A stretch of DNA of 53,541 nucleotides, taken from Rhodobacteraceae bacterium (ex Bugula neritina AB1) (GTDB lineage Bacteria; Pseudomonadota; Alphaproteobacteria; Rhodobacterales; Rhodobacteraceae). Positions within the stretch are counted from its first letter, which is position 1. Each line of letters starts with the position of its first letter. The DNA is taken from contig MDLF01000075.1 of the NCBI GenBank assembly GCA_001730095.1, positions 1 through 53,541 on the forward strand, written 5' to 3'. The position numbers and the translations under genes are program-made. The notes beneath the pieces were generated by a model, which worked only from the letters and a program-made list of their open reading frames with translations, was not told the DNA's origin and made no database searches. Positions 3,211 through 23,955 of this stretch are shown here, one piece after another.

Positions 3211-3587
3211 CGGCAGGCCACCGGGGCGGCGCGCGGGAGGCTCTGCGGCTGCACTGTTCACAGGTTCCGGGCTTGGCTGTGCTTACGCAGGCAGATGCCC
3301 GCAGGAGCCGGGGGAAGGTCTGGCGGAACCAGCCGCAAAGGGGCTGAACTCAGTCATTGCCACCTTCCGGCGACTCTGCTAAACGCCATCCATCCTGAAG
3401 ACCCCGGATTCGTTTCCGGGGTTGTTACGTTTGTCAGGATACACGAACTCGGGGACCTTCGGGGCCCTACAACACGGCCACCTTAGTAGGGCGTTTCCTT
3501 TGGAAACAAACGGGCAGGGGGCTTTTAACATAGCTGGGCCAAAGACAAGAACCTAAGGCCTGGCACGCTAAACGGAAGACAGAAAGC
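3211..3587. other. Spacer between epimerase and rplB
   Basis: No gene is visible in these 377 bases. They contain a terminator-like hairpin (3401-3422) and a small perfect hairpin GTTTCC-TTT-GGAAAC at 3493-3507. The A/T-rich stretch CTTTTAACATAGC near 3521 precedes rplB. rplB must be expressed from here, but I could not pick a convincing promoter. The usual upstream neighbours rpsJ, rplC, rplD and rplW are not present. Confidence 0.5.
3401..3422 (+). terminator. Hairpin after the ugd-epimerase pair
   Basis: ACCCCGGA (3401-3408) pairs exactly with TCCGGGGT (3415-3422) over a six-base loop. Only a short T-rich tail follows, so it may be an inefficient factor-independent terminator. It lies about 190 bases after the epimerase stop codon. 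Confidence 0.5.
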
Positions 3588-22576: not shown

Positions 22577-22605
22577 GTGACAGCCTCCCGAATCTCCGCT
22601 AGCGT
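22577..22605 (+). promoter_or_regulatory. Promoter of the DAHP synthase leader
   Basis: GTGACA (22577-22582), 17-base spacer, TAGCGT (22600-22605). Transcription would begin about 7 bases later, at or beside the A of the leader-peptide ATG (22612). That would make the leader message nearly or fully leaderless. Confidence 0.5.
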
Positions 22606-22611
22606 CCGCGT

Positions 22612-22689
22612 ATGACCCGTAGCTATGCCGCATTCTGGTATTTCTTTTATCCGCGCCACATGGCGGACGGAGGGGTCAGCGCATTCTGA
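22612..22689 (+). CDS. Aromatic leader peptide for DAHP synthase
   Basis: A 25-codon frame whose centre reads F-W-Y-F-F-Y (codons 8-13, 22633-22650), with another Tyr at codon 5 and Phe at codon 25. Six consecutive aromatic codons in such a short frame, followed by a factor-independent terminator and then DAHP synthase, is the pattern of a transcription-attenuation leader. Ribosome stalling there would report low Phe, Trp or Tyr charging. It is too short for routine gene callers. No good Shine-Dalgarno lies upstream, consistent with leaderless translation. Confidence 0.8.
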   Translation: MTRSYAAFWYFFYPRHMADGGVSAF

Positions 22690-22722
22690 GCTAAGATATC
22701 GGAACGCATCAGGATACCACCA

Positions 22723-22751
22723 ACCGCCCGCAGCCCGCAGGCGGTTTTTTT
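22723..22751 (+). terminator. Attenuator terminator before DAHP synthase
   Basis: ACCGCC (22723-22728) pairs with GGCGGT (22740-22745) and is followed by seven T (22745-22751), 45 bases before the DAHP synthase start. The 5' arm CCGCC (22724-22728) can also pair with GGCGG at 22662-22666 inside the leader frame, just after the aromatic codons. That would be the antiterminator when a ribosome stalls on those codons. Confidence 0.8.
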
Positions 22752-22796
22752 GTATCCGTCGCAGCGCCAGGGGCCTCCCGCCAAGGAAACAGACAG

Positions 22797-23876
22797 ATGA
22801 CACCGCAGACCGAAAACCTTCGCATTACCGCCATGCAGGAACTGATCTCCCCCGAAGACCTTGCGTCGCAGATGCCGTGCACGGCGGCGGCCACGGATAC
22901 TGTCTTGGCCAGCCGCACGGCCATTCAGGACGTGCTGCACGGCCGCGATGGGCGCGTTGTTGCGGTGGTCGGCCCCTGTTCGATCCACGACCCCAAGGCA
23001 GCAATGGAATACGCCGAACGGCTGGCGCCGCTGCGCGCGCGCCTGTCTGGCCAGCTGGAAATCGTCATGCGGGTCTATTTCGAAAAACCCCGCACGATCT
23101 CGGGCTGGAAAGGGCTGATCAACGACCCCGGCCTCGACAACTCTTTTTGCATCAACGAAGGGCTGGGGCTGGCGCGCCGCCTGTGCCTGGACATCAACGC
23201 CCTGGGCCTGCCGGTCGGGACGGAGTTCCTCGATACTGCGGTGCCGCAATATATCTCCGACCTGATCGCCTGGGCCGCCATCGGCGCCCGCACCACCGAA
23301 AGCCAGATCCACCGCGAAATGGCCTCGGGTCTCAGCTGCCCGGTGGGCTTCAAGAACGGCACCCGCGGCAATGTGCAGATCGCGGTGGATGCAGTGCGCT
23401 CTGCCGCCCATCCGCATCATTTCATGGCGCTGGCCAAATCGGGCCGCGCCGCGATTGCCGCCACCAGCGGCAACCCGGACTGCCACCTGATCCTGCGCGG
23501 CGGTGGCGGCACCAACTATGACGCGGCCTCGATCGATGCGGCCTGCAAACTGGCGGAAAAGGACGGCATCCGCGGCCATGTGATGATCGACGCCAGCCAC
23601 GCCAACAGCGGCAAGGACCCGATGCGGCAGCCTGCGGTCCTGCGCGACGTGGCGGGGCAGATCGCCGGCGGCGACACCCGTATCACAGGCGTGATGGTGG
23701 AAAGCCATCTGGTGGCGGGCCGTCAGGATCTCGGCAGGGGGGCGCTGACCTACGGCCAGTCCATCACCGATGGCTGCCTGGGCTGGGAGGACACCGTGGC
23801 AGAGCTGGAACATCTGGCCGATGCGGTTGCCGAACGCCGTGTGCATGCGGCGCAAAAGGCTCTGGCCGACGCCTGA
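22797..23876 (+). CDS. 3-deoxy-7-phosphoheptulonate synthase (DAHP synthase), type I
   Basis: First step of the shikimate pathway: phosphoenolpyruvate + erythrose 4-phosphate to DAHP, in the cytoplasm. 359 residues, the AroF/AroG/AroH-like class. Seen: VVGPCSIHDP (metal-binding Cys), MRVYFEKPRTISGWKGLIND, GTEFLDTAVPQY, SCPVGFKNGT and HVMIDASHANSGKD, all family signatures. GGAAACAGAC precedes the ATG at 22797. Which feedback type (Phe, Tyr or Trp) it is cannot be told from here. Its regulation by the leader/attenuator upstream is inferred from sequence. Confidence 0.95.
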   Translation: MTPQTENLRITAMQELISPEDLASQMPCTAAATDTVLASRTAIQDVLHGRDGRVVAVVGPCSIHDPKAAMEYAERLAPLRARLSGQLEIVMRVYFEKPRTISGWKGLINDPGLDNSFCINEGLGLARRLCLDINALGLPVGTEFLDTAVPQYISDLIAWAAIGARTTESQIHREMASGLSCPVGFKNGTRGNVQIAVDAVRSAAHPHHFMALAKSGRAAIAATSGNPDCHLILRGGGGTNYDAASIDAACKLAEKDGIRGHVMIDASHANSGKDPMRQPAVLRDVAGQIAGGDTRITGVMVESHLVAGRQDLGRGALTYGQSITDGCLGWEDTVAELEHLADAVAERRVHAAQKALADA

Positions 23877-23955
23877 AGCTGCCATGGCGGCAGGGGCCTC
23901 CGCGATCGCGTCTTCGGACCAGAAAGAAGAGCCTGCTTCTTTCTGGTCTAAAGTA

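Follow-up and report, generated by a model that had tools for sequence, protein, structure and literature searches.

The window, by which we mean the whole 53,541-nt stretch of DNA that was analysed, carries on its forward strand a gene for a type I (AroF/G/H) DAHP synthase of 359 aa (22797..23876), matched by the aroFGH model TIGR00034 at 505.5 bits against a cut-off of 173.2. Upstream of this gene and on the same strand is a small reading frame (22612-22689), with its ATG at 22612, its stop codon at 22687-22689 and 25 codons that specify MTRSYAAFWYFFYPRHMADGGVSAF. The first-pass annotation had described a frame of this length with six consecutive aromatic codons in front of DAHP synthase, and did so exactly to the base. 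The run, Phe-Trp-Tyr-Phe-Phe-Tyr, occupies codons 8-13 (22633-22650; TTC TGG TAT TTC TTT TAT) and is the only one of at least five aromatic codons across the window's six frames; such runs numbered 0.025 on average in 40 first-order Markov copies of the window, and none of six or more occurred. Very probably the element as a whole is a tiny frame of Phe, Trp and Tyr codons combined with a transcription stop signal, which switches the gene on at aromatic shortage. About 40 nt past the DAHP synthase stop codon there is also a perfect 13-bp inverted repeat with a 6-nt loop and without a T-run (23917-23948), the inner 11 bp of which have no second occurrence in the genome even with 2 mismatches allowed; this is perhaps the gene's own terminator. 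Elsewhere in the window (3512-3585, +) lies an L2-Alphaproteobacteria ribosomal protein leader (Rfam RF03142), at 39.5 bits against a gathering score of 37.8.

Between the leader frame and DAHP synthase is a terminator in which AACCGCC (22722-22728) and GGCGGTT (22740-22746) form a 7-bp stem around an 11-nt loop, with seven T at 22745-22751. It had earlier been placed at 22723-22751, correct to within 1 nt, the stem beginning at 22722. A generic terminator scan missed it, the 11-nt loop being outside the scan's range of 3-8; in many relatives the loop on this stem is shorter. A further stem, GGATAC/GTATCC, surrounds the terminator in the window, and its conservation in relatives was not apparent by eye. 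The leader's GGCGG (22662-22666) can pair with CCGCC (22724-22728) of the terminator's 5' arm, just as the first-pass annotation had it, the helix being longer than claimed there and joining 22662-22677 with 22713-22728. We number the pairing segments, all on the forward strand, as segment 1 (UGACCC, 22613..22618), which pairs with 22673-22678 in the minimum-energy fold; segment 2, the 5' arm of the antiterminator with its GGCGG core (22662..22677); segment 3, the 3' arm of the antiterminator, which includes the terminator's 5' arm (22713..22728); and segment 4, the terminator's 3' arm together with the T-run (22740..22751). When 22600-22760 is folded as RNA (-59.7 kcal/mol, z -2.73) the terminator is formed and a local hairpin pairs GGCGG with 22654-22657. 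For 22648-22740, which starts at the final aromatic codon and stops shortly after the terminator loop, leaving the 3' arm incomplete, the minimum-energy structure is the antiterminator, at an energy that is ordinary for such a sequence (z -0.54).

The leader, meaning the frame with its run, is found in 21/21 genomes of the genus and 11/11 of the gene-bearing genomes of the family, the window's own genome entering both counts. It is present at 13 of 14 loci from the class, the fourteenth being cut by a contig end and its leader being found on another contig by a covariance model (R1), and at 76 of the 80 loci that form the best 80 of 589 confirmed matches in the contig collection, from alpha-, beta- and gammaproteobacteria. 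The loci without a leader among these best 80 of 589 (L059, L072, L090 and L091) all have betaproteobacterial names. Within the phylum 66 loci were inspected, 26-odd best matches plus 40 chosen by rank and family, and 36 have the leader (37 passed the filter, one of them, L187, being a chance frame without a terminator); those without it are mostly DAHP synthase matches of about 60% identity or less. These samples overlap, some contig-collection loci coming from genomes that other samples also contain, and the counts take in five leaders (L040, L061, L087, L121 and L122) that were missed by the run filter and recognised by eye. Named hosts comprise roseobacters, Bradyrhizobium, Inquilinus, Phenylobacterium, Massilia, Duganella, Caballeronia, Herbaspirillum, Pseudoxanthomonas and Rhodanobacter. 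Comparison among relatives had been proposed as a check, and both the aromatic run and the two stems are indeed conserved upstream of DAHP synthase. The proposal named Rhodobacteraceae; the element is no speciality of that family, being found also in Bradyrhizobium and in beta- and gammaproteobacteria. By eye, L087, L121 and L122 keep a GGCGG-type segment and a terminator, with aromatic codons that are dispersed and, in L087 and L121, fewer; this may be a loosening of the sensor.

Dereplication kept 112 of 151 leaders, and in 109 of these 112 a script found the terminator, the exceptions being L010 (weak T-run), L064 (misplaced frame) and L187; the script misplaced the starts of L058 and L133 as well. 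The core, that is GGCGG in the leader with CCGCC and GGCGG in the terminator, is exact in 104/109. Counted back from GGCGG in the 95 leaders with a common frame (the reference codon ends in its first G), codons -6, -7, -8 and -9 are aromatic in 94, 93, 90 and 83 of 95, and F, Y and W exchange at all four, codon -8 being W in 41, F in 32 and Y in 17 leaders. In 63/104 leaders 11 nt separate the last aromatic codon from GGCGG. Since these codons remain aromatic while the residue varies, the conserved property is 'aromatic' at a fixed distance from the antiterminator. All three residues occur together in the run of 87 of the 109 leaders, with F and Y only in 21 and F and W only in 1. In the 23 Rhodobacterales leaders the W codon is invariant (23/23), F and Y exchange, and both Phe and both Tyr codons are used.

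The core helices are nearly invariant, and covariation therefore rests on the flanking pairs. In 104 of the 109 leaders with a terminator, pairing with the partner base is seen in 58 against 45.7 expected (0/2000 shuffles) at the position preceding GGCGG, and in 45 against 38.0 expected (1/2000 shuffles) at the position following it. Swap tests over 108 leaders favoured native over swapped partners for 2:3 (z -4.5; reversed decoys -0.2 and -1.2) and likewise for 1:2 (z -4.4), where reversed decoys also reached -2.0 and -2.2 and so show that part of the signal is composition; register shifts between relatives rule out column-wise covariation for the 1:2 hairpin, which has moderate support from these comparisons. 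An alignment of 63 diverse sequences (A3) has 95.2% of terminator cells paired versus 90.5% when shuffled, and its outer terminator pair (135:164) is AU in 41, GC in 20 and GU in 2 of the 63; for the 2:3 helix in the same alignment the margin is small, 79.7% versus 78.0% (3/500). Among the 23 Rhodobacterales the extended 12-pair 2:3 helix is 93.8% paired versus 92.2% shuffled (2/500), with slid versions at 31-47%. Compensatory changes had been anticipated in both stems; they are seen in the terminator and, to a moderate degree, at the flanks, but the near-invariant core offers no informative ones.

A folding model of 103 leaders addressed the position of the ribosome, each leader being folded after removal of everything up to 16 nt from the P site (a textbook footprint) and with the transcript ending at the terminator loop. 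The modelled antiterminator probability is 0.95 when aromatic codons of the run occupy the A site; it drops to 0.72, 0.31, 0.12 and 0.01 at one to four codons past the run, and to 0 once the ribosome has reached the stop codon. The values for the window are 0.84-0.99 (codons 8-13), 0.57 (codon 14), 0.01 (codon 15) and 0.05 without a ribosome. By these modelled values a stalled ribosome would start to encroach on GGCGG close to the end of the run. In the model, ribosomes that stall upstream of the run (in the window, from roughly the fourth or fifth codon onwards) favour the antiterminator almost as well, and the aromatic codons are therefore not distinguished by folding alone. The ribosome-free model gives a mean of 0.44 and a median of 0.22 over all 103 leaders, a mean that makes the untranslated state uncertain in many relatives.

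The leader frame is preceded by a probable promoter, with a -35 element GTGACA (22577..22582, +) 17 nt from a -10 element TAGCGT (22600..22605, +), the latter at -12..-7 if the A of the ATG is +1. In the window this -10 element matches 3/6 consensus bases and the promoter is absent from the list of a generic scan; its placement derives from 57 dereplicated alphaproteobacterial leaders aligned on the script-chosen ATG (L004, L023, L093 and L128 among them). In that alignment TGACA at -35..-31 is among the most conserved blocks (0.49-0.92 bits), followed in conservation by T at -43/-42, and TGAC lies 34-37 nt before the ATG in 40/57. The bases of TAnnnT at -13..-8 reach 0.89, 0.96 and 0.56 bits, and C is at -1 in 50/57. 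The leader ATG follows an SD-like sequence in 2/57 and the DAHP synthase ATG does so in 49/57; the corresponding numbers for the 53 other leaders are 10 and 47. For L004, L023 and L128 an earlier in-frame ATG suits the promoter better than the one chosen by the script, and in some betaproteobacteria a -10-like sequence seems, by eye, to lie farther upstream. The promoter spacing in the window puts +1 on the leader ATG. Together with the C at -1 and the SD counts, this predicts a transcription start at the A of that ATG (22612..22612, +), so that the leader RNA would probably be leaderless, and the predicted promoter of the alphaproteobacterial leaders, placed for a start at this codon, speaks against a start downstream of 22690. 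A published leaderless attenuator is trpL of Sinorhizobium meliloti, as described in PMC7298713 and PMC10117765.

The gene that the leader precedes is itself unevenly distributed. By protein search a type I DAHP synthase is held by 11/198 genomes of the family, 21/21 of the genus, 14/385 of the class and 225/398 of the phylum (each count taking in the window's own genome), and the rarity of the element in Rhodobacteraceae follows from the rarity of this gene there. A class II DAHP synthase is present in 97/100 genomes of the family and also in the window's own genome, within which the type I protein has no second match; the 491 nt upstream of that class II gene hold neither a cluster of three aromatic codons (with at most one other codon between) nor a run of five T. 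A quick tree drawn from 138 proteins gathers the roseobacter-type copies into a single group of 39 rows, and L061 and L117 are marked 'no' there through the run-length filter or a contig end rather than through absence of the element. Three loci from the window's family or near it (L010, L011 and L085) stand apart from the roseobacter-type group, beside L149 and L152 from another family of the class, and each has a leader of its own. Those three would make up a second, separate type I group in or near the family, with a leader that is spelled differently (FYW type). Their separate placement, each with a leader, suggests that gene and leader were acquired together on more than one occasion, in a tree of which many branches are weakly supported. 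In the same tree the DAHP synthases of L016 and L053, from records titled Nocardioides marinus and Mycobacterium sp., fall inside Leisingera and beside Inquilinus; these are probably mislabelled or contaminated assemblies.

Covariance model R1 indicates how closely the element keeps to this gene. Among 376 alphaproteobacterial genomes it gave 13 matches of at least 47 bits, 7 of which belonged to the training set; 12 are directly before the gene, and the thirteenth is at a contig end in a genome whose DAHP synthase gene opens another contig. Some match at E <= 0.01 occurs in 94/376 genomes, those beyond the 13 scoring 33 bits or less. Other targets in alphaproteobacteria were sought in this next tier and rejected: the matches listed are at most 33 bits, many partial and at the terminator end, some full-length. 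One gene holder, G595, whose leader (L124) was in the training set, is not among the matches and may not have been in the genome draw. A second copy in the window's own genome was likewise discarded, the next best R1 match (E 0.016) covering the terminator end only and one full-length match having E 7.6. Among 398 genomes of the phylum R1 gave 58 matches at 1e-5, of which 49 precede a type I DAHP synthase (46 by coordinates; L233, L237 and L238 by eye). The remainder are five copies of Rfam Phe_leader, two matches of similar score and two weak ones (31-35 bits), one of which was read, with no DAHP synthase seen. The five Phe_leader copies (L229-L232 and L235, before pheS- or pheA-like genes) score 39.5-45.2 bits with R1, and the two attenuators may have a layout in common or descend from one ancestor; for all its likeness to Phe_leader, the element is set apart by score, codons and target. 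Searched with Rfam, the window's leader gave no match, Phe_leader (RF01859) being absent among matches to E = 1. On 20 diverse DAHP synthase leader loci RF01859 was below the gathering threshold, and on 11 leader-bearing loci it was absent to E = 1. Membership in another Rfam family was considered and rejected, the only matches to E = 1 in those 11 loci being the sub-threshold isrK, sraL, RNAI, RAGATH-25 (L077) and MEG8_3 (L012); at L077 the sub-threshold sraL (E 0.006) and RNAI overlap the leader and terminator.

We consider it highly probable that a ribosome-mediated transcription attenuator of the trp/phe type controls the type I DAHP synthase, presumably responding to the charging of Phe, Tyr and Trp tRNA. 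The stall-and-antiterminate interpretation offered at first reading is supported by what relatives share, and sequence comparison shows a conserved frame, aromatic register, terminator, alternative helix and promoter placement. We hypothesize that the transcript begins at the leader ATG, give or take one or two nucleotides, and that a ribosome initiates the leader at once. Were charged Phe, Trp or Tyr tRNA short, the ribosome would halt on codons 8-13 with uncharged tRNA, blocking the 1:2 pairing and leaving segment 2 (GGCGG) free, because its front edge would be just short of GGCGG; segment 2 would then capture segment 3 (CCGCC) ahead of the synthesis of segment 4, the terminator would not form, and DAHP synthase would be transcribed. 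With all three tRNAs charged, the ribosome would reach the stop codon and cover segment 2, and the 3:4 terminator would end the transcript near 22751. If the leader were not translated, pairing within 1:2 would let the 3:4 terminator form.

A response to each of Phe, Tyr and Trp is likely. The foremost alternative, somewhat less than an even prospect in our view, is that the same attenuator answers mainly to one amino acid, for example to Phe, or to Trp through its single invariant codon. AroR of Corynebacterium glutamicum, with its Phe-Tyr-Phe leader, is reported to respond to limitation for Phe and not for Tyr (PMC11802643), which shows that a leader can contain Tyr codons without responding to Tyr; the invariance of W in 23/23 Rhodobacterales leaders, among exchanging F and Y, could be read in the same direction, as could the 21/109 leaders that have no W in the run. 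Against a single effector, all three kinds of aromatic codon fill the same four in-register positions, 87/109 runs hold F, W and Y together, and in the model a stall on any aromatic codon leaves the antiterminator open.

It seems unlikely, though a good deal less so than the explanations that follow, that attenuation in cis is joined by an action in trans of the released RNA of about 140 nt, of the leaderless peptide, or of both, as for rnTrpL/peTrpL of S. meliloti. The predicted layout is the same as the one described there, a leaderless frame starting the RNA and a terminator ending it (PMC7298713, PMC10117765), but outside the aromatic run the peptide diverges, as expected if codons alone matter. 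Very improbable is a TnaC-like arrest in which the nascent peptide senses a free aromatic amino acid and uncharged tRNA plays no part: beyond the run the Rhodobacterales peptide is partly conserved (Pro14 in 22/23, Ala18 in 23/23), yet Ala18 is the GCG inside GGCGG and thus under an RNA constraint, residues outside the run differ between groups while GGCGG stays, F, Y and W swap at each of the four best-conserved run positions, and high amino acid would presumably open the gene, the wrong sign for biosynthesis. A chance frame beside the ordinary terminator of the upstream chemoreceptor gene can be dismissed almost entirely: a terminator scan did expect 1.4 terminator-like sites in shuffled copies of the 3-kb region, but recurrence in relatives and the Markov copies rule out a chance short frame, frame, terminator and spacing recur across three classes and, by eye, next to a different upstream gene (L040), and the gene is preceded by 12/13 strong R1 matches in alphaproteobacteria and 49/58 in the phylum.

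Attenuation in response to Phe, Tyr and Trp tRNA, the reading we prefer, draws on familiar parts. The first-pass annotation had contrasted the leader with trp and phe leaders, which it said use a single amino acid; leaders for several amino acids are already known in principle, such as the ilv and thr leaders and AroR before C. glutamicum aroF. AroR shares with our element a leader (Phe-Tyr-Phe) before DAHP synthase, ribosome stalling and a response to Phe (PMC4046766, PMC11802643); it differs in belonging to an actinobacterium and in a short FYF run without Trp in which Tyr is reported inactive, and the likeness drawn here is one of function (PMC11802643). Phe_leader has in common a Phe-rich short frame and a terminator, and R1 finds its five Rfam-confirmed copies, but its codons are Phe-centred and its targets in the gammaproteobacterial matches are pheST and pheA (genes named by eye). 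The trpL/rnTrpL attenuator RNA of S. meliloti begins, like the one predicted here, with the leader ATG, and differs in having Trp codons only and trpE(G) as its target (PMC7298713, PMC10117765). Before Acholeplasma aroF a predicted element, uORFC-13-1, likewise places a terminator and a short frame, the latter containing one or more Phe codons, ahead of DAHP synthase; it is confined to Acholeplasma and environmental sequences (24 in all) (PMC8632094); the same paper cites a hypothesis of attenuation for E. coli aroF. Cis-regulatory RNAs are predicted upstream of Shewanella aroF and aroH, the table entry for aroF citing an attenuator that senses tyr-tRNA (PMC2659441), and putative attenuators are placed upstream of DAHP synthase-tyrA in Vibrio and before hisHb-tyrA of Agrobacterium (PMC1173090). 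The Shewanella and Vibrio cases concern other paralogues, and the accounts of them that were consulted describe no F/W/Y leader (PMC2659441, PMC1173090). Among the papers listed by searches of a mainly open-access literature, none was seen to report an F/W/Y leader upstream of DAHP synthase in proteobacteria; older attenuation surveys may predict it. The mechanism is ordinary, well supported and broad, and as far as checked the element is undescribed in these bacteria and unmatched in Rfam.

On a more far-reaching version our judgement is evenly balanced: that the leader is a three-input OR sensor, in which lack of any one of Phe, Tyr or Trp would, by way of one ribosome on one leaderless mini-mRNA, open the entry gene of the shikimate pathway, and that it is an old part of the gene, moved with it between proteobacterial groups, and an RNA family absent from Rfam. 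E. coli regulates its three DAHP synthases through repressors and through the differing feedback of the three isozymes. In the present case a single gene appears to supply a branched pathway of three products through one RNA switch with codons for all three. The finding predicts regulation of this kind for many DAHP synthases, those of Bradyrhizobium, Burkholderiaceae, Oxalobacteraceae, Lysobacteraceae and roseobacters among others, adds a probable leaderless attenuator beyond trpL, and would provide a clean system for asking how one ribosome integrates several tRNA charging levels.
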